Shown here piece after piece: positions 770 to 42,396 of a DNA stretch of 44,793 nucleotides. Positions within the stretch are counted from its first letter, which is position 1; each line of letters starts with the position of its first letter. Made by a program: the position numbers and the translations under genes. Origin of the DNA: a virus. The DNA lies in the IMG/VR virus record IMGVR_UViG_3300020201_000037, positions 1-44,793 of that record; one strand, given 5' to 3'. The notes beneath the pieces are model-generated. The model had not been told where the DNA came from and did no database searches. It saw only the letters and a list, made by a program, of their open reading frames with translations.

Positions 770-1339
770 TTAATTGTTGCCTGAAAATGTACGCTTGCGG
801 ATGCTATAAAAAGCATCTGGAAACGCAGTGATTTGGTTGTTACTACAGTTTAATTCAATCAACAACTTACATAGAGACTCGCTGAGCTCCGTGATTTTAT
901 TGTTGCTGCAAAGAATTTTTTCTAGGTTTTCAAGCTGCGACAAACTCTCTGGTAGCTCCGTGATTTTATTGTTACTACAGTACAACACTCTTAATGTTGT
1001 AATCTTGCTAATTTCAGTTAAGTCAGTGAGTTGATTGCCGCTCACTGAAATTCTGTCAAGATAGGTTAGTAACCCCAAGCCCTTTGGTAGGGTTTTTAGG
1101 TTTTTGTTAGAAAGGTCTAGTAGCTCCAGTTCTTTCAAAGCAGCGATACCTTCTGCGTTTGCAGGTAGATTTGCGAGCTCTAAGAGTTCGCCGCACGCTT
1201 CATGAAATAATTCTTCAAAATCAAAACCTTGTCCTTCGCAAAGCTGCTCTGCAAGTTCAAGATTCAATGCCTCACCAGTTTCGATGAGTTCAATAATTTT
1301 GTTTCTATTTTCGATTTGCTCTGTTGTGAAGATTTTCAT
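770..1339 (-). CDS. Leucine-rich-repeat protein, phage paralogue 1
   Basis: 189 residues. The N-terminal helical region (about 1-60) carries the motif LIETGEALNLELAEQLCEGQG followed by a GELLEL element; the same region occurs in the LRR proteins at 29537 and 40209. About 5 repeats follow, of the form LxxLxxLxCSNNxITELPESL, a bacterial LRR solenoid likely to bind protein. There is no signal peptide, so it is probably cytoplasmic. It is read from its own Bacteroidetes-type promoter (1385-1416). Role unknown; interaction with a host or superinfecting-phage protein is inference only. Confidence 0.8.
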   Translation of the reverse strand: MKIFTTEQIENRNKIIELIETGEALNLELAEQLCEGQGFDFEELFHEACGELLELANLPANAEGIAALKELELLDLSNKNLKTLPKGLGLLTYLDRISVSGNQLTDLTEISKITTLRVLYCSNNKITELPESLSQLENLEKILCSNNKITELSESLCKLLIELNCSNNQITAFPDAFYSIRKRTFSGNN

Positions 1340-1731: not shown

Positions 1732-2571
1732 TTATTTTATAAATGAAAGAATATGTTTTATTATTGGCAAAGTCCAGCCGTCTCCAAGCAGGTTTCCTGC
1801 TTGTGTTGTTGTTAATGTATCACAATAATTATCGCCGAAGCCCTGCAACCTGCACATTTCAATTTTATTGCAAGTCCTAAATTGCCCTTCATCTTCAATT
1901 AGCGTAATCATTCCAGTAGTTTTGTTTCTGTGTATCAAATATCTTTGCGTTCCACTATTTCCGCTTCCAGTGTTTAAACAAGTGTGTTTTTCAGCATCAG
2001 TTTTACCACTTGTTAAAATATTGTTTAATTTTATGCCTAAGTTTTTCGGCTGCGGAATATCTGTAACAACATCGAACATCGTTTCTTTTGTTCTAATGTT
2101 TGTCCAATAATATCGGTCTCTTAATTGCGCAGTAAGCACGCTGCTATTTATGCGCACTGGGTAAACTCCAAGTGCTCTGCTCATAATTCCAACATCATTT
2201 TTAGAAGCACTTCCAACGTTTTCTTGCAGAAAAATAACGTTTGGATTTAGCGTTTTAATGTGATTTAGTATTTCTACAAACACAAAAAACAAACTACTTT
2301 TGCTCCCATTAATTCCTGCGCGCTTACCAGCTGCACTCAAATCTTGACAAGGGCTTCCACTCCCTATAAAATCAATAGTTTGCCAATCCAAATCCCAGTT
2401 TCGCCAATTTAGAATATCTCCAACCTGTATCACATCAGGAAAGTGATGCTGTTGTAGCTTTATGGCAGAAGATTTGATTTCGCAAGAGTAGTATTTTTCT
2501 ACTATTATCCCTAAATCGTGGAACGCCTGGCGTATCGTTCCCATGCCATTGAACAAGCTTACGACGTTCAT
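1732..2571 (-). CDS. DNA cytosine-5 methyltransferase
   Basis: 279 residues, with the ordered C5-methyltransferase motifs: SAM-binding FNGMGTIRQAF (I), GSPCQDLS with catalytic Cys75 (IV), QENVGS at about 116-121 (VI), QLRDRYYW at 149-156 (VIII), CRLQGF (IX) and DGWTLP (X). Spacing and wording around motifs IV-VIII resemble the compact DNMT3-like group. No restriction enzyme is adjacent, so it probably protects phage DNA from host restriction or marks it. The start overlaps the stop of the upstream gene by ATGA, indicating translational coupling in a three-gene operon (3011 to 1512). Confidence 0.93.
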   Translation of the reverse strand: MNVVSLFNGMGTIRQAFHDLGIIVEKYYSCEIKSSAIKLQQHHFPDVIQVGDILNWRNWDLDWQTIDFIGSGSPCQDLSAAGKRAGINGSKSSLFFVFVEILNHIKTLNPNVIFLQENVGSASKNDVGIMSRALGVYPVRINSSVLTAQLRDRYYWTNIRTKETMFDVVTDIPQPKNLGIKLNNILTSGKTDAEKHTCLNTGSGNSGTQRYLIHRNKTTGMITLIEDEGQFRTCNKIEMCRLQGFGDNYCDTLTTTQAGNLLGDGWTLPIIKHILSFIK

Positions 2572-3011
2572 TTTCTATCTATTTTTGCCGAGCCAAACTT
2601 AGCAATATGCGCATTTATTAGCGCATTTATCGCTGGCTTCAAGTAGGCTACATGGCCTGCATTGACGCGAAAGCTCATCGTTTTTGTCGATACTTCTTTT
2701 GGCCTGCCTGCTCCAGTGCGCGCGCCGCCGCGATTCTCTTTTTTGAGTTGTTGAATTTGCTCGTCTATCCAAGCGATGCGCGGCGCGAGTTTGCGTGCAG
2801 GGAATAGAAAGCCGAAATTACTAGATTTGCCCAATATTTTCATCTCGGTTTCTATAATTTCCGAAATAAAATCGTATTGCTTCTCTGTGATTTCGCCGCC
2901 ATCGAACATCTCGAATAATACAGGGCACATGCCATATTCACCCCGCGCGAAGTAATCAGGCAGGCGTTCGCGCAGTAGCTCAAATGCCGCGATTTTTTCT
3001 AATTTTTTCAT
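2568..3011 (-). CDS. PPRIAWC-family protein fused to a basic putative DNA-binding tail
   Basis: 147 residues. Residues 1-90 belong to a family found five times in this genome: IAAFELL near the N-terminus and a terminal signature (here LAPRIAWIDEQIQQLKK). Unlike the other members it has a C-terminal extension with GGARTGAGRPK, a basic Gly/Arg patch seen in phage DNA-binding proteins, then TKTMSFRVN, which resembles a ribbon-helix-helix strand. The conserved leader AAAAACTACAAC precedes the ATG. Coupled to the methyltransferase, so it may control it. Function not known. Confidence 0.7.
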   Translation of the reverse strand: MKKLEKIAAFELLRERLPDYFARGEYGMCPVLFEMFDGGEITEKQYDFISEIIETEMKILGKSSNFGFLFPARKLAPRIAWIDEQIQQLKKENRGGARTGAGRPKEVSTKTMSFRVNAGHVAYLKPAINALINAHIAKFGSAKIDRK

Positions 3012-3538: not shown

Positions 3539-3907
3539 TTACCACCAAGGTGTGACCTCTGAGAGGCCGTTTTTAAACATTTTTACAAGTTGGTCAACGT
3601 TGTGGAATTTTTTGCTGCTCGTCGCAGTCATTCTGTTTGTTTTGTTTATTGTAAATTGCGCCAAGCCAACTTCCTGAGACCATGCTTTTTTACAGTCTGT
3701 TACTACTGCAAATTTGGCAATGTATGCAGCCATAGCATCTTTCGATGCAAATGCCGCCTCCACTGTGCAGTGGTCGAATCCAGTGTGCACTTTAAAAAAC
3801 ATTATCTCTTCGCTGCGCGTACCTTGCGCTGCGAGGTTTTTGATTTTAACCGTTGGTGTTTGGTAGCTTTTGTAACTTGGTCTTTTGTAGCTTTTGCAAC
3901 TTTTCAT
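3539..3907 (-). CDS. Hypothetical protein, VGLA-FT paralogue 1
   Basis: 122 residues. Residues from about 36 on align with the protein at 4008-4274: an A-F-S/E-S-K...YI segment, W..EVGLAQFT, then TATSSKKFHNVDQLVKMFKNGL against TGRSLYHTSETIVKIFEAGL. The N-terminal 35 residues are Lys/Tyr/Ser-rich and may be disordered. I kept the long start because the conserved leader (AAACTACACACC) and a hairpin stand directly before it. No known domain recognised. Confidence 0.65.
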   Translation of the reverse strand: MKSCKSYKRPSYKSYQTPTVKIKNLAAQGTRSEEIMFFKVHTGFDHCTVEAAFASKDAMAAYIAKFAVVTDCKKAWSQEVGLAQFTINKTNRMTATSSKKFHNVDQLVKMFKNGLSEVTPWW

Positions 3908-4007: not shown

Positions 4008-4274
4008 TTACAGTTTTAGGCCCGCTTCAAATATTTTTACAATCGTTTCGCTTGTGTGGTACAAGCTTCTGCCTGTGATTTGGCAGCCGCTTTTTGTGAA
4101 GTCGGCAAGCCCGACTTTGTCGTACCAATTTTCTGTATTTTGCATCGGTGAGTGGGCTGTAATGTACTCGTTGCAAGTTTGTTCGCTTTCAAAAACCGCT
4201 ATTACGGTTTCGCCTTTGATTTCAAATCTTAAAATACTTGCGATTGTTGAAGTTTTGATTGTTGAAGTTGTCAT
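4008..4274 (-). CDS. Hypothetical protein, VGLA-FT paralogue 2
   Basis: 88 residues, paralogous to the C-terminal part of the protein at 3539-3907 (shared YI...W..KVGLADFT and a final TIVKIFEAGL). Mixed alpha/beta in appearance, with no signal or membrane segment. First gene after the repeated promoter at 4342-4402, with an A-rich leader and a hairpin at 4290-4311. The tandem paralogues look like a local duplication. No function assigned. Confidence 0.65.
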   Translation of the reverse strand: MTTSTIKTSTIASILRFEIKGETVIAVFESEQTCNEYITAHSPMQNTENWYDKVGLADFTKSGCQITGRSLYHTSETIVKIFEAGLKL

Positions 4275-4311: not shown

Positions 4312-4341
4312 GATTTAAAATATTTTCCCTATTTGTTGTTA

Positions 4342-4402
4342 CAAAGGTACGCAACATATTTGAAACCTGCAAACATTTAGCAAAGTATTTTAAAAATACT
4401 TT
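4342..4402 (-). promoter_or_regulatory. Promoter with upstream palindrome, copy B
   Basis: Read on the minus strand: 21-bp palindrome at 4382-4402, TTTG (4370-4373), 20-base spacer, TACCTTTG (4342-4349). Nearly identical to the copies at 1385-1445 and 28728-28788. It serves the gene at 4274 and probably the one at 3907. Confidence 0.8.
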
Positions 4403-4415
4403 CAAAAATATTTAT

Positions 4416-4679
4416 CTAAGCTTTTAATGCAGCGATTTGCGCCTTGCACCATGCGACGCGCGGCGGAATACTGTATGGTGTAAACAAAAAACCGTCCGTC
4501 CGCTTTTTTAACTTTTTAAGCTCATCTTTTATTACACCTGCGACATAAACAACCGCGTCAGTTTCAATTTTCCCATAAACCCCAAGCGACATTAGTGATT
4601 TGCACATGCCGCTGCATGGAGATTCCTTCATTTTTTCTATTAGCAGCTCGAACGCTGCGATTTTATCATTCGTTGTCAT
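4416..4679 (-). CDS. PPRIAWC-family small protein
   Basis: 87 residues: DKIAAFELLIEKMKESPCSGMCKSL at the N-terminus, a helical middle, and the signature FTPYSIPPRVAWCKAQIAAL at the C-terminus. It is very close to the protein at 39878-40147, sharing the KESPCSGMC segment, even though the two lie far apart. Predicted all-helical and cytoplasmic. The stop lies just upstream of promoter copy B. Family unknown to me; five copies in one phage suggest a dosage or diversification benefit. Confidence 0.7.
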   Translation of the reverse strand: MTTNDKIAAFELLIEKMKESPCSGMCKSLMSLGVYGKIETDAVVYVAGVIKDELKKLKKRTDGFLFTPYSIPPRVAWCKAQIAALKA

Positions 4680-28727: not shown

Positions 28728-28788
28728 AAAGTATTTTAAAAATACTTTGCTAAATGTTTGCAGGTTTCAAATATGTTGCGTACCTTTG
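28728..28788 (+). promoter_or_regulatory. Promoter with upstream palindrome, copy C
   Basis: A 21-bp palindrome (28728-28748), TTTG (28757-28760), 20 bases, TACCTTTG (28781-28788). It is near-identical to copies A and B on the other strand, and identity with copy A continues upstream through AAAACAACTTATTTT. It drives the plus-strand accessory cassette at 28838-30551. Confidence 0.82.
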
Positions 28789-28837
28789 TAACAACAAATA
28801 GAGAAAGTATTATAAATTTCAAAAAAACTATACAACC

Positions 28838-29185
28838 ATGACAAGCCAATTCAGCAACAAGTTAACTGCAAAACAACTTACATTCCTTACTTCGGTTACA
28901 AAACTCAAAAATTCCATTTTCATTGGCACGAGATTTTATACTTCTATTTTTGAATGCACAGCCCTCAAAGGTTGTAATTTTGAAAGCGCAACCTTCGACG
29001 ACTGTTTTTTAGGAACTGTAACCTTTGAAAATTGTAGTTTTACAAGAACAAACTTTGACGGTTGTAATTTTAAAAATTGCGTTTTCAAAAATTGCGTATT
29101 TGATGATTGCGTTGCTTACGATTGTGAAGCGGTCCCTGCTGACCTTCAGTGCATTACACTAAAAGGCAATAGCTATTATTTGTAA
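28838..29185 (+). CDS. Pentapeptide-repeat protein
   Basis: 115 residues. From about 28 to 95 it repeats a five-residue unit with Phe or Leu at the centre (CNFES, ATFDD, CFLGT, VTFEN, CSFTR, TNFDG, CNFKN, CVFKN, CVFDD), forming a right-handed beta helix. Some such proteins mimic DNA and protect gyrase; others are scaffolds. Unusually, many units start with Cys. First gene of the accessory cassette. Confidence 0.85.
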   Translation: MTSQFSNKLTAKQLTFLTSVTKLKNSIFIGTRFYTSIFECTALKGCNFESATFDDCFLGTVTFENCSFTRTNFDGCNFKNCVFKNCVFDDCVAYDCEAVPADLQCITLKGNSYYL

Positions 29186-29200
29186 AATAAATTCATAACC

Positions 29201-29233
29201 GCGCAAACGAATTCGACCGATTCTCGTTTGCGC
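29201..29233 (+). promoter_or_regulatory. Intergenic stem-loop, 10-bp perfect stem
   Basis: GCGCAAACGA (29201-29210) pairs with TCGTTTGCGC (29224-29233) around a 13-base loop, ending 16 bases before the ATG at 29250. There is no U-run, so it is a leader or processing structure rather than a terminator. The core CGCGCAAACG also occurs (other strand) at 3989-3998. Confidence 0.6.
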
Positions 29234-29249
29234 TTTAAAAACTATAAAA

Positions 29250-29540
29250 ATGATAGTATTGACTAACGACCAGAAAGTCGCAGCGTTCCAAAAAATCGTT
29301 GCTTATATTGAAAAAAACCCCGTATGGACGCTACGTGTTCCCATAGAAAACATGGTAGACCGTGGAGAACTCCACTTGGTGGAGTTCTTTTTTTTAGAAG
29401 AGCAAATAGAAGCAGAAATTAAAGCCAAAAACGCCGCCCTGCCAGAAGGGTCTGCGTGGGAGCATTATATGTTTGAGCCGTTCGATGACTTTTCTCACAT
29501 CGCATGGTGCCAACAAAAAATAGAGCAACTCCAAGCATGA
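29250..29540 (+). CDS. PPRIAWC-family protein (diverged)
   Basis: 96 residues, with KVAAFQKIVAYIEKN at the start and the family tail in degenerate form (FEPFDDFSHIAWCQQKIEQL). Acidic helices between. Its stop overlaps the ATG of the LRR gene (ATGA), so the two products are probably made together. Of the copies here this one lacks the PPR part of the signature. Confidence 0.7.
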   Translation: MIVLTNDQKVAAFQKIVAYIEKNPVWTLRVPIENMVDRGELHLVEFFFLEEQIEAEIKAKNAALPEGSAWEHYMFEPFDDFSHIAWCQQKIEQLQA

Positions 29541-30181
29541 CACCAGAGCAAGTCGAGATGCGACAAAAAATAGTCGCGCTCATCGAAACTGGTGAAAAAG
29601 CTAACATTGAACTTGCCCAGCTACTCTGCACTGGGCAAGGCTTGCCGTTCCAGAAGCTGTTTCGCGATGCTTGGGGGGAGCTGCTGTTGGCGTGCGAGTG
29701 CCCTATAAGCGTTAAAGAACTTGCATATCTAATGCAAGTTAGTTGCTTAAGCTTCACTGTGCTCGGCAATGCGCTACCGAAGGGATTGGAAAGGCTGAGG
29801 AACTTGCGGTCGCTCTACGTCTATGGCAAGCTGACCGAGATGCCAGAGGCAATAATGCGACTAACCAACTTGGTAGTCCTTTCCTTGGACAGCTGCGGAC
29901 TCACAGAGTTACCAGCGTGGGTTGGAGAGCTCGTAGAGTTACGCGAGATTTGCTGTAACAATAACCTACTGACCGAGCTACCAGAAAGCTTGGGTAAGCT
30001 TAATAAGCTACAATATCTCTATTGTAGCAAGAATCGGCTTAAAGCCTTGCCAGAAAGTTTGGCGCAGCTGACAAAGTTGAGGATATTGCATTGTAAAAAC
30101 AACTTGCTTGCCGAGCTACCAGCGTGGATTGAGGGTTCGGCAAGTCTAAGAGTATTCGATTTCGAGGGCAATCTTTTTTAA
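29537..30181 (+). CDS. Leucine-rich-repeat protein, phage paralogue 2
   Basis: 214 residues from the ATG at 29537, chosen because it overlaps the upstream stop and gives MTPEQVEMRQKIVALIETGE, the same N-terminus as the LRR protein at 40209. The helical head is followed by about 6 repeats (for example LTELPESLGKLNKLQYLYCS), each with Asn/Cys turns. Cytoplasmic, predicted protein binder. Forms a unit with flanking PPRIAWC-family genes. Confidence 0.8.
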   Translation: MTPEQVEMRQKIVALIETGEKANIELAQLLCTGQGLPFQKLFRDAWGELLLACECPISVKELAYLMQVSCLSFTVLGNALPKGLERLRNLRSLYVYGKLTEMPEAIMRLTNLVVLSLDSCGLTELPAWVGELVELREICCNNNLLTELPESLGKLNKLQYLYCSKNRLKALPESLAQLTKLRILHCKNNLLAELPAWIEGSASLRVFDFEGNLF

Positions 30182-30196
30182 TAGCATTCACCCATC

Positions 30197-30213
30197 AGAG
30201 TAGCGGCTACTCT
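30197..30213 (+). promoter_or_regulatory. Leader hairpin AGAGTAG / CTACTCT
   Basis: Perfect 7-bp stem with loop CGG, 14 bases before the ATG at 30228, followed by A-rich leader AAAAAAATACAACA. Third copy of the hairpin also seen at 3923 and 4290. Confidence 0.6.
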
Positions 30214-30227
30214 AAAAAAATACAACA

Positions 30228-30551
30228 ATGGAAATTACTGAGCTGACAACATCACAAAAAAGTGTCGTAATTGACACATTAGAAAAGCTCGCAATTGAGC
30301 TAAAGGAAAACAATAGAGGGAAGAAATTTGTATTCGGCATGTGCGTGCCGCTTGCATGGCTGCTTTCGTGTGAAATTGTAACAGAAGAGGGCTTTCAGCT
30401 TGTCGATAAAATCATAGACAATGATTTGCGAGCTAAGAACGGAAGCAAGTATTGGTTAGATGAAAGCTTTACATTCTACCTATTTTGTCCACGCGACATT
30501 CCGCCGCGCATAGCGTGGTGTAAAGCTAAAATCGCACAACTAAAATCATAA
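30228..30551 (+). CDS. PPRIAWC-family protein
   Basis: 107 residues. It ends with FCPRDIPPRIAWCKAKIAQLKS, the canonical signature; the N-terminal two-thirds is helical and more diverged than in the 4416 and 39878 copies. It contains MCVPLAW where those have GMCKSL. Last gene of the plus-strand cassette, followed by a terminator. Confidence 0.72.
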   Translation: MEITELTTSQKSVVIDTLEKLAIELKENNRGKKFVFGMCVPLAWLLSCEIVTEEGFQLVDKIIDNDLRAKNGSKYWLDESFTFYLFCPRDIPPRIAWCKAKIAQLKS

Positions 30552-30588
30552 AAAAAAGGCTCGTCGAATCTGATGAGCCTTTTTTTTA
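30551..30588. terminator. Bidirectional terminator
   Basis: An 8-bp stem GGCTCGTC / GATGAGCC (one G-T pair) flanked by A-run and T-run. It ends the accessory cassette and, on the other strand, the terminase operon. Confidence 0.9.
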
Positions 30589-32040
30589 TTTCCTAATATC
30601 TTGGCAAAAGGTATTGAACAAATACCTGTTACAATCTAACAAATCTGCCTGGTGTGCTTCGCCAGCCGACTTCGCGATGCCATGCTTTCCGTCATCTTTT
30701 ATTCTAAGCAAGTCTTTTATTAGCTCTTTGCAGTTATCTAAATCAACTGCAATTTCTGGACATCTACTATAAATTGTATTTAATTGTAGATGGCAATCGG
30801 CGTGCCATGGGTTTGATTTTGGGATGTCGAATGCGGAATCTGGCAACTGTAATTCATCTTTTATTATTTTGTAATAATTAGTTGGGTCTTTTACCATACC
30901 AGAAGTCGCATTCCCTGATGCGTCGCCAGTGACGCGAAACGCGAAAGCGCATTGGTATTTACCTATCACCTCATCCTTTTCGTTGTACCAGATGCCTATT
31001 TTCTTGCCTGTTTGCTCATAAACCCAAACCCGAATCGCTTTGCAGGTGTCGTAAATAGTCGCACTATTGCCCTTTATCCCAACCTTAAATTCTTTTTTTA
31101 GGTGCGGAGCGTATTTGAAATTAGTCTCAATTGTTTGCTTTTGGCTCAAATAGTGCTTTTGCATAAAAATGGCAGTCATGGGCACTTTGTTAAAATCAAA
31201 CGCTAAGAATATCCTCTCCTCCCAATTCATTGGCATTGCTTTTTTAAAAACTTTGCTCTGCAATTGCCTGTCCCTAAATACATAAGCCCAAGATTGACCC
31301 TCAAAGTTTACGAAAACAGAAAAATATTCCTGATGATAACTTTGCTCATCTAAGTCGCGAGCTGCTGCTATAACTTCCAAAGGGTCAATTTTTGGGTTAT
31401 CAGTTGTTATCATTCTAAATGTCATCCAGTCTTGATTGTCGCCAATTTCATCATCAATTACATCTATATCGTACTCTCCGAAGTGGTTAATTTCGCACTT
31501 CCCATTCACGACACCGCGCTGAATGAGCTTATAAAAATGATTCGTTTTACCATTTGCTGTGCCAATAAAAAAGCCGTCGCCCTTGAAATCCGAAAGAGCT
31601 GGCCGAGATACAGTCTTAAAGTGGTGTTCAAAAACTGAATCTGGAATCTTTTGTGTTTCTTCATAAATGACTCTGTGAAACCTGTATCCACGACCATCGT
31701 TTTTGTGCCCCTCGTTTGTTAAAGACCAAAAATACAACACACCGCCGCCGTGAAAATATATAATATGCTTAGAGTTATCTTTTTCTTTTATTAACTCTTT
31801 GTATTTATCTAAAATAACTCTCCAAGTTTGAGAAATGTCTTTAAAAACTGGCGCAAATACAGCTATGTATTCACCATTAAAAACCGCACCAGTGATGAGT
31901 GAATTTTTTATATTAGATATTAGTTCAGTTTTCCCAAACCGCCTGGCGCAAACAATACAGTTAAACCTGCGCTTTTCGTTTAGTATCTTTAATTGCCCAA
32001 AGTGAGCTTTAAATAGCTCTATATCTACTCTTTTTTTCAT
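30586..32040 (-). CDS. terL: Terminase large subunit
   Basis: 484 residues. ATPase part with Walker A-like CARRFGKTE (31-39) and Walker B RVIYEET (123-129); nuclease part starting LAFDFNKVP (Asp282) and ending with an acidic ADLLDCNRYL. It packages DNA into the prohead through the portal. Four-base overlap with terS. The Walker A is of the classic R-GKT terminase type. Confidence 0.92.
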   Translation of the reverse strand: MKKRVDIELFKAHFGQLKILNEKRRFNCIVCARRFGKTELISNIKNSLITGAVFNGEYIAVFAPVFKDISQTWRVILDKYKELIKEKDNSKHIIYFHGGGVLYFWSLTNEGHKNDGRGYRFHRVIYEETQKIPDSVFEHHFKTVSRPALSDFKGDGFFIGTANGKTNHFYKLIQRGVVNGKCEINHFGEYDIDVIDDEIGDNQDWMTFRMITTDNPKIDPLEVIAAARDLDEQSYHQEYFSVFVNFEGQSWAYVFRDRQLQSKVFKKAMPMNWEERIFLAFDFNKVPMTAIFMQKHYLSQKQTIETNFKYAPHLKKEFKVGIKGNSATIYDTCKAIRVWVYEQTGKKIGIWYNEKDEVIGKYQCAFAFRVTGDASGNATSGMVKDPTNYYKIIKDELQLPDSAFDIPKSNPWHADCHLQLNTIYSRCPEIAVDLDNCKELIKDLLRIKDDGKHGIAKSAGEAHQADLLDCNRYLFNTFCQDIRK

Positions 32041-39712: not shown

Positions 39713-39878
39713 TTGCTGGAGGCGCGATGATTGGAATAGATGAATTTACTGTCGTAATTGCGTATAAAAAAGATACCGCATTTATCAAATCAGTTCTCTC
39801 GTTTATGCAAAGAATATTAGCAATGTCGGCAGGGCGCATATACCCTACAGACTGTAAATGATTTATTATTTTCTCCAT
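39669..39878 (-). CDS. Hypothetical winged-helix-like protein
   Basis: 69 residues. INHLQSVGYMRPADIANILCINERTDLINAVSFLY has the helix-turn-helix-wing rhythm of small regulators; the C-terminus is Pro/Lys-rich. The start overlaps the stop of the PPRIAWC gene by one base (TAATG). Possibly an early regulator, but the domain call is weak. Confidence 0.45.
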   Translation of the reverse strand: MEKIINHLQSVGYMRPADIANILCINERTDLINAVSFLYAITTVNSSIPIIAPPANGEKEKNYGKQRMG

Positions 39879-40147
39879 TATTTTAGTTGTTTAATTTTGG
39901 CTTCACACCACTCAATGCGCGGCGGCATTTCGTAAGGTTTGAAAAGATAAACGCTTAGCGTGTGCGAAATGCTGTTTTGCTGCACAAGTTCTGCTTTTAT
40001 GATGCCTAAAATATATAATCTGGCGAAATCGCTAATTTTATTATAAAATTGAAGCGAGATTAGTGCTCTGCACATGCCGCTGCATGGAGATTCCTTCATT
40101 CTTTCTATCAACAGCTCAAACGCTGCGATTTTCTTTGAGGTTGTCAT
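39878..40147 (-). CDS. PPRIAWC-family small protein
   Basis: 89 residues. KIAAFELLIERMKESPCSGMCRAL at the N-terminus and FKPYEMPPRIEWCEAKIKQL at the C-terminus; very close to the protein at 4416-4679. It follows the LRR gene at 40209 and begins after the leader AAAAAAACAACCAC. The same LRR-then-PPRIAWC order occurs at 29537-30551. Confidence 0.75.
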   Translation of the reverse strand: MTTSKKIAAFELLIERMKESPCSGMCRALISLQFYNKISDFARLYILGIIKAELVQQNSISHTLSVYLFKPYEMPPRIEWCEAKIKQLK

Positions 40148-40164
40148 GTGGTTGTTTTTTTTGT

Positions 40165-40211
40165 GATGAAATGAATGAGCCTTTTACGGACTTGCTCAGG
40201 TCGGGATGCTA
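40165..40211 (-). repeat. 47-bp repeat at the LRR stop codon, copy 1
   Basis: Matches 41954-42000 at 41 of 47 positions. It includes the LRR stop codon and reads into the leader of the next gene; TGAGC / GCTCA inside it can form a small hairpin. Two LRR genes ending in the same element suggests duplication of an LRR-plus-tail cassette. Confidence 0.7.
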
Positions 40212-40841
40212 AAAAGGAGTATCTATAATAATCTCTTTACGTAAGCCAGTAGGCAATACAGTAATATTATTATTGTAGTAATACAAGTAATCTAAGTTTG
40301 CAATCTCGCCAATGGACTCTGGCAATGCCGTAAGATGGTTGAAGCTACAATTCAACTCTACCAAGTTTACAAGCTGTCCTATCGACTCTGGTAATACCGT
40401 AAGTCGATTGCGGTCGCAATACAACAATTCCAAGTTGGCAAGTTGCCCAATCGACTCTGGCAATGATGTGAGCTGGTTTTTGTGGCAATCTAAGTATTCC
40501 AAGTTTACCAGCAATCCTATAGACTCTGGTAATACTTTAATATCGTTATAGTAGCAATCTAATCTCTCTAAGTTAGTAAGTAAGCCTATCGACTCTGGTA
40601 ATGCAACTAGGTTTTTTAAACTTAAATTTAAAACTTTTAAGTTAGTCAACCATACTACAGATTCAATACTTATATTATAATATAACAACTTCAATAGTTC
40701 GCCCCATACTTCTTTTAGCAAAACCTCGAAACTAAGTCTTTGTCCTTTAGATAGTTGTTGTGCAAGTTCCAGATTAGACTGCTCTCCTGTTTCGATTAAG
40801 GCAATAATCTGTTTGCGCATTTCTAGTTTCTCTGGTGTCAT
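40209..40841 (-). CDS. Leucine-rich-repeat protein, phage paralogue 3
   Basis: 210 residues. N-terminal region MTPEKLEMRKQIIALIETGE is nearly the same as in paralogue 2, then WGELLKL and about 7 repeats of 23 residues (for example LTSLPESIGQLANLELLYCD). These are the most regular repeats of the four proteins. Protein-binding solenoid, cytoplasmic. Lies between the 40862 gene and a PPRIAWC gene in one row. Confidence 0.82.
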   Translation of the reverse strand: MTPEKLEMRKQIIALIETGEQSNLELAQQLSKGQRLSFEVLLKEVWGELLKLLYYNISIESVVWLTNLKVLNLSLKNLVALPESIGLLTNLERLDCYYNDIKVLPESIGLLVNLEYLDCHKNQLTSLPESIGQLANLELLYCDRNRLTVLPESIGQLVNLVELNCSFNHLTALPESIGEIANLDYLYYYNNNITVLPTGLRKEIIIDTPF

Positions 40842-41912: not shown

Positions 41913-41953
41913 TATTTTTTATTACCTTTTTATCATGGTGTTTTTTGTTTTGC

Positions 41954-42000
41954 GATGAAATGAATGAGCCTTTTATGGACGTGCTTAGGTCAGGATATTA
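41954..42000 (-). repeat. 47-bp repeat at the LRR stop codon, copy 2
   Basis: Second copy of the element at 40165-40211 (41 of 47 identical), again spanning an LRR stop codon and the following leader. Confidence 0.7.
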
Positions 42001-42396
42001 GAAGTGATTGCCTCTTGTATATACACAAACCTTTTTACTAAACCCTTTAGGATTTACGGAAAGACGGTTGTCGCCGCAATCTAAGTACACTAAGTTAGTA
42101 AGGTTGCCGAGGCTTTCTGGCAATGCTGTCAGCTTGTTGCAGCTACAATCCAATTCCACTAAGTTTACCAGTAAGCAAATGCTATCTGGTAATGCAGTGA
42201 GCTTGTTCCAAGAGCAATCTAAGTATTCCAAGTTTACCAGCAATCCTATAGACTCTGGCAATACAGAAATCTGGTTGTAGCTTAAATCTAGTTGCTTCAT
42301 CGCCAAAGCAGTTTCTATGCCATAAGTAGCTTTAGGCAAGCCCAAAAACGTGAGCAACTCAGCCCATTCTAATGTAATTTTTTCCGTGTTTTCCAT
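41998..42396 (-). CDS. Leucine-rich-repeat protein, phage paralogue 4 (short)
   Basis: 132 residues. It lacks the LIETGE head of the other three and begins with MENTEKITLEWAELLTFLG, then four repeats (for example SVLPESIGLLVNLEYLDCS). The repeats are closest to paralogue 3. It lies 18 bases after the 42415 gene and after the leader AAAAACTACAATT. Confidence 0.8.
   Translation of the reverse strand: MENTEKITLEWAELLTFLGLPKATYGIETALAMKQLDLSYNQISVLPESIGLLVNLEYLDCSWNKLTALPDSICLLVNLVELDCSCNKLTALPESLGNLTNLVYLDCGDNRLSVNPKGFSKKVCVYTRGNHF

Follow-up and report, generated by a model that had tools for sequence, protein, structure and literature searches.

LRR proteins are classic recognition modules, and the known members of the SHOC2/Leptospira-like LRR fold are binding proteins. 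Proteins of this type (PF12799, PF13855; PDB 7txh, 4u08) are built from 23-residue LxxLxLxxNxLxxLPxxIGxL repeats. Phages also encode LRR proteins, among them those of the Leptospira phage LE1 type (KF114878), and a limited literature search found nothing relevant on the role of LRR proteins in phages. A second described group with a bearing on the locus considered here is phrog_2510/2176, an uncharacterized family of small proteins of about 90-115 aa that possess a GLC..L motif near helix 2 and an R[IM].W..I motif near the C-terminus. Over 100 phage records contain the family, and multiple copies per record are common; in Phapecoctavirus-like phages, phrog_2510-type proteins are found at up to 4 places per genome. 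Such proteins are annotated as 'hypothetical'. The third relevant group is the moron, for which the working criteria are an own promoter/terminator, a different G+C content, insertion among phage genes and presence in phages of different kinds (PMC2920897).

The DNA analyzed here, referred to as the window, is a stretch of 44,793 bases corresponding to positions 1 to 44,793 of IMG/VR record IMGVR_UViG_3300020201_000037. Genes in the window include those for a terminase large subunit, RecT, an exonuclease, a replication initiator and two DNA methyltransferases; no Rfam family and no tRNA was found in it. The virus most likely infects a Bacteroidota host, since its RecT finds its best matches among phages of Flavobacteriia (Leeuwenhoekiella, Riemerella) and its predicted promoters fit the Bacteroidota -33/-7 consensus, TTTG/TANNTTTG (PMC6847099). 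A preliminary description of this DNA listed five small proteins, designated P, and four LRR proteins, and all nine ORFs are present. It further suggested that the two families form a candidate two-component module in which, for example, the LRR protein recognizes a target.

Organization of the cassette and its counterpart in a second phage

The P and LRR genes of main interest belong to a cassette at positions 28728-30590, which lies antisense between late genes and adjoins the terminase gene. Its order is a predicted promoter, a pentapeptide-repeat gene, a hairpin, P1, LRR, P2 and a predicted terminator, where P1 and P2 are the ORFs at 29250 and 30228 of the small helical P family, and all of these parts are on the plus strand. 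The P-LRR-P arrangement recognized earlier at 29250-30551 is real, but those limits are too narrow, as the promoter element (28728-28822) and the terminator (30550-30590) belong to the unit. The promoter element is of the Bacteroidota -33/-7 type, and its core, TTTG-N20-TACCTTTG at 28757-28788, is an exact match to the consensus. Between the promoter and P1 are a gene for a 115-aa pentapeptide-repeat protein (28838-29185; Pfam Pentapeptide, 2e-12), which is a possible DNA mimic, and a strong hairpin, GCGCAAACGA...TCGTTTGCGC (29201-29233; RNA fold -16 kcal/mol), which could possibly serve as an attenuator. P1 (29250-29540; 96 aa) is followed by the gene for the LRR protein (29537-30181; 214 aa; Pfam LRR_4, 5e-21), and the two overlap by ATGA at 29537-29540, as had been reported. 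P2 (30228-30551; 107 aa) precedes the predicted terminator hairpin, which has a 19-bp stem, A8/T8 flanks and a folding energy of -23.6 kcal/mol and is common to the cassette and the convergent terminase gene.

A protein-motif scan of IMG/VR identified a second carrier, contig IMGVR_UViG_3300020596_000880 (L006). Positions 29250-30591 of the window and L006:3705-5045 are 85% identical in DNA over 1344 bp, and this is the sole similarity between the two records, whose terminases are unrelated and which have no other protein in common. L006 keeps the P1-LRR-P2 order, the ATGA overlap of P1 and LRR, the promoter block (L006:3567-3663, 83% identical) and the terminator, and its proteins are 85% (P1, L006:3705-3995), 79% (LRR, L006:3992-4636) and 78% (P2, L006:4681-5004) identical to those of the window. 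The pentapeptide-repeat gene and the strong hairpin between the promoter and P1 are present in the window only. In L006 the cassette is flanked by two genes of opposite orientation, one tape-measure-like (1121 aa) and the other of 700 aa. P1-LRR-P2 is consequently a real unit, as it has stayed linked to its promoter and terminator in a phage with which the window has nothing else in common. The preliminary description had made its proposal depend on the adjacency of P and LRR in related phages, and adjacency held in the single other phage available. Since L006 is the only other known carrier, the apparent conservation of the trio is based on a single pair of phages. IMG/VR scans with the P motif, the promoter and the LRR N-terminal domain returned L006 as the only other carrier, and the promoter element, searched as an exact 26-mer and as a gapped core pattern, occurs elsewhere in IMG/VR only in L006. 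Single-protein scans with the window terminase and with the LRR protein encoded at 40209 gave no matches, genome-contig scans with P and with the LRR N-terminal domain found no relative, and the P proteins had no tblastn match in phage or plasmid collections; a scan based on a pairwise LRR alignment was uninformative since its patterns were unspecific. Neither of the two records holds further copies of P or of the LRR N-terminal domain.

The properties of the cassette correspond closely to those of a moron. It has its own predicted promoter and terminator, its insertion antisense among late genes in two unrelated backgrounds breaks the colinearity of phage genes, its G+C content of 44-46% differs moderately from the 38% and 42% of the two carrier records, and L006, which also carries it, shares no other protein with the window, terminase included. 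Judged from these sequence features, the cassette is very probably a moron, that is, a self-contained accessory cassette that has passed between unrelated phages infecting Bacteroidota. It differs from known morons in its P1-LRR-P2 content, which was not found described, and would be a genuine mobile accessory element, familiar in kind but unusual in what it carries.

The P and LRR protein families

The five P proteins are homologous, as the protein encoded at 39878 retrieves the other four (one-genome E-values from 1e-28 to 3e-5), which shows them to be real homologues rather than chance motif matches. The signatures by which the family was originally delineated are less uniform than thought, in that an exact IAAFELL start is present in only 3 of the 5 and the PPRIAWC tail varies (SHIAWC, PPRIAWC, PPRIEWC, PPRVAWC, APRIAWI). 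Three of the P genes are outside of the cassette, all on the minus strand. One (39878-40147; 89 aa) is directly downstream of the LRR gene at 40209, one (4416-4679; 87 aa) is without an adjacent LRR gene, and one (2568-3011; 147 aa) has an ATGA overlap with the gene at 1732-2571 (minus strand), which encodes a C5-cytosine methyltransferase. The last of these P proteins has an extra C-terminal tail of ~55 aa of the GGARTGAGRPK type, which may be a DNA-binding tail and for which neither a Pfam nor a phage match was found. The structure model of P2 (pLDDT 88) consists of four helices. No match for the P proteins was found in Pfam, NCBIfam or PADLOC, and neither P nor the LRR N-terminal domain had a usable PDB sequence match. 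Fold matches of P in the PDB were dropped as too weak (best Z 4.9).

Several weak similarities link P to phrog_2510/2176. When the P model was compared with viral models using Foldseek, the match at rank 2 was a 112-aa protein of Klebsiella phage KP8 (E 0.14, TM 0.45), chosen after inspection of many weak fold matches; as two KP8 genes share that length, the match was assigned by motif layout, and so by inference, to L021:2087-2425, which belongs to phrog_2510/2176. Alignment of P with twelve members of the family by hhalign gave an E-value of 0.0013 but a probability of 19%, with a score of 23.8, whereas the highest score obtained from 100 column shuffles was 18.3. P proteins had no direct match to the phrog_2510/2176 profiles at E up to 1, and a reverse profile search of the window for proteins of this type was empty at E up to 10. 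The two groups are alike in size, in the placement of the GLC..L and R[IM].W..I motifs and in the occurrence of multiple copies per genome, whereas the N-terminal W and the H.N ahead of R are missing from P. P is probably, though not certainly, a distant branch of this known but uncharacterized family. Membership of the small proteins in a known unrelated family had been named at the outset as telling against a two-component module, and in part this is what was found.

All four LRR proteins exceed the Pfam curated cut-off (LRR_4, 54-75 bits versus a cut-off of 27), in agreement with the preliminary description, but they are not all alike. Three of the four have a common 53-residue N-terminal helical domain, which in the cassette protein (residues 1-53) precedes the LRR solenoid and for which neither Pfam nor PDB sequences gave a significant match. 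The second P-linked copy (40209-40841, minus strand; 210 aa) has the same layout in its structure model (pLDDT 94), with the helical domain followed by repeats of the SHOC2/Leptospira type. A third protein (770-1339, minus strand; 189 aa) is encoded downstream of a further copy of the promoter element and has no adjacent P, and the fourth (41998-42396, minus strand; 132 aa) is short and has neither the N-terminal domain nor an adjacent P. The modeled LRR protein has the 23-residue repeat of SHOC2-like/Leptospira-type proteins and matches their structures with Z of 23-24 and about 37-42% identity over the repeats; it differs from them in the added 53-aa N-terminal helical domain and in being short. 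Like the window LRR proteins, those of the Leptospira phage LE1 type are phage-encoded, and they align partially with a window LRR protein (27-37% identity over 51-77% of the query). No signal peptide was evident by eye in the phage LRR protein, searches of Pfam, NCBIfam, PADLOC and PHROGs gave no match to a domain of catalytic, secretion or toxin type, and no PADLOC model of a known anti-phage defense system was matched by any of ten proteins. NCBIfam matches of the LRR proteins to XopAC, XopL and InlA were far below the cut-off, reflected common LRR repeats only and provide no evidence for an effector.

The window contains three near-identical promoter elements of ~97-108 bp, each ahead of separate accessory genes. 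Copies on the minus strand are located upstream of LRR 770 (1351-1447) and upstream of a small gene at 4008-4274 (4320-4402). The latter gene belongs to a third duplicated small-protein family, together with 3539-3907 (both minus strand; 31% identity over 68 aa, E 5e-7), and this pair adjoins P and LRR genes. A 74-nt sequence is present at 40141-40214 and, with 82% identity, at 41930-42003, after the stop codons of LRR 40209 and LRR 41998, and leads into a P gene only after the former. Because the same sequence follows both LRR genes and P follows one of them, the two genes must have become either split apart or brought together within this genome.

Divergence between the two cassette copies

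Comparison of the window and L006 gave dN/dS values of 0.19 for P1, 0.32 for LRR and 0.49 for P2, and all three cassette genes are under purifying selection. Changes in the LRR protein are concentrated at the concave exposed positions, defined as the four exposed positions of each LRR strand, where 12 of 28 residues differ versus 20 of 120 elsewhere in the solenoid (p = 0.005) and 8 of 46 convex polar positions (p = 0.03). The hydrophobic core is nearly fixed (1 of 21 changed), and conservation extends to the N-terminal domain (dN/dS 0.17). Changes in P2 fall mainly in residues 46-87 (dN/dS 0.66), and the changed positions include 56/57, 60/61, 64/65 and 69, which form one face of predicted helix 3. 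Synonymous divergence in P2 is 0.59 in residues 46-87 versus 0.17 in residues 1-45. Since synonymous divergence, too, varies along the genes, block or mosaic recombination could have produced the clusters of change, as an alternative to adaptive change; moreover, concave LRR residues may vary by drift, being solvent-exposed. No dN/dS above 1 was found in any cassette gene or segment, and for this reason positive selection is not claimed. The clustering of changes on the concave, ligand-binding face is suggestive of a recognition protein in this one comparison with L006, and to that extent supports the earlier view of the LRR protein as a target recognizer.

Relationship between P and LRR and possible functions of the cassette

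Among the 59 genes of the window, the nine P and LRR genes form three P-LRR adjacencies, where 0.68 are expected (permutation P = 0.019). By itself this statistic is modest; the same order is, however, kept in an unrelated phage. The link between P and LRR is real in the cassette but not obligate. P 4416 lacks a neighboring LRR, P 2568 overlaps a methyltransferase gene, and neither LRR 770 nor LRR 41998 is accompanied by P, so that the two-component system proposed earlier is not supported as an obligate one. Nor did the suggestion that the small protein is an effector find support, as searches of Pfam, NCBIfam, PADLOC and PHROGs yielded neither a toxic nor a catalytic domain.

The explanation that best accommodates these observations, and which as a whole has about an even chance of being correct, combines a moron, a cytoplasmic LRR binder, P accessories and a role in counter-defense or exclusion. 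The promoter-P1-LRR-P2-terminator cassette would have been inserted antisense among late genes and passed between unrelated phages. Because no catalytic or secretion feature was recognized, the LRR protein is most simply viewed as a cytoplasmic binder, a recognizer whose concave face would bind a protein target in the infected or lysogenized cell. The P proteins would be small helical accessory proteins, and P1 would be made in a fixed ratio with LRR through translational coupling, as suggested by the ATGA overlap. The cassette probably acts on something inside the host cell. Pentapeptide-repeat proteins and DNA methyltransferases are both typical of counter-defense and exclusion, and since these are the similarly expressed or coupled neighbors of the P and LRR genes, the likeliest benefit, though at rather less than an even chance, would be counter-defense or exclusion of competing phages, with a target of the host or the competitor.

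Alternatively, P and LRR could be independent accessory genes that occupy the same hot spots, use a common promoter and have moved together without being functional partners. P would then be the Bacteroidota-phage branch of the widespread small GLC...RxxW family (phrog_2510/2176), spreading in multiple copies. This is a credible possibility, at somewhat less than an even chance. The unpartnered genes that contradict an obligate system speak for it, P resembles phrog_2510-type proteins in the motif layout G[LM]C..L ... R[IM].W..I and more weakly in fold and profile, and no LRR gene is annotated within the examined 50 kb of phage KP8. Against it stand the retention in L006 of the P1-LRR overlap and of the full P1-LRR-P2 order, the second LRR-P pair at 39878-40841, and the above-chance adjacency of the two families.

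Two other roles fare less well. A toxin-antitoxin or host-takeover pair, in which LRR inhibits a host protein and P neutralizes or delivers LRR, is improbable, for although small overlapping genes with predicted coupling and their own promoter are a common toxin-antitoxin arrangement and the cassette is horizontally mobile, no toxin or antitoxin family was matched in Pfam, NCBIfam, PADLOC or PHROGs, the LRR protein lacks a catalytic domain, and P1-LRR-P2 is a trio, not a pair. A virion-associated or assembly role, for example as an LRR tail or chaperone protein, is highly improbable, since the cassette, despite lying among late genes next to the terminase gene in the window and the tape measure gene in L006, is on the opposite strand with its own promoter, has different flanking genes in the two phages and is absent from the other phages searched.

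The preferred explanation of a moron encoding a cytoplasmic binder has a more far-reaching form, which is rather unlikely, wherein P1-LRR-P2 is a phage-spread recognition system, a dedicated LRR-based counter-defense or exclusion module of exchangeable specificity in phages of Bacteroidota. What would diversify between phages in such a system is the concave face of the LRR, together with one face of P2 helix 3, while the rest remained fixed. A mobile cassette of an LRR protein and small helical proteins that is kept between unrelated phages offers a compact, testable case, and, if P is indeed a branch of phrog_2510/2176, the P1-LRR-P2 cassette would provide a handle on a widespread, multi-copy and uncharacterized family of small proteins.
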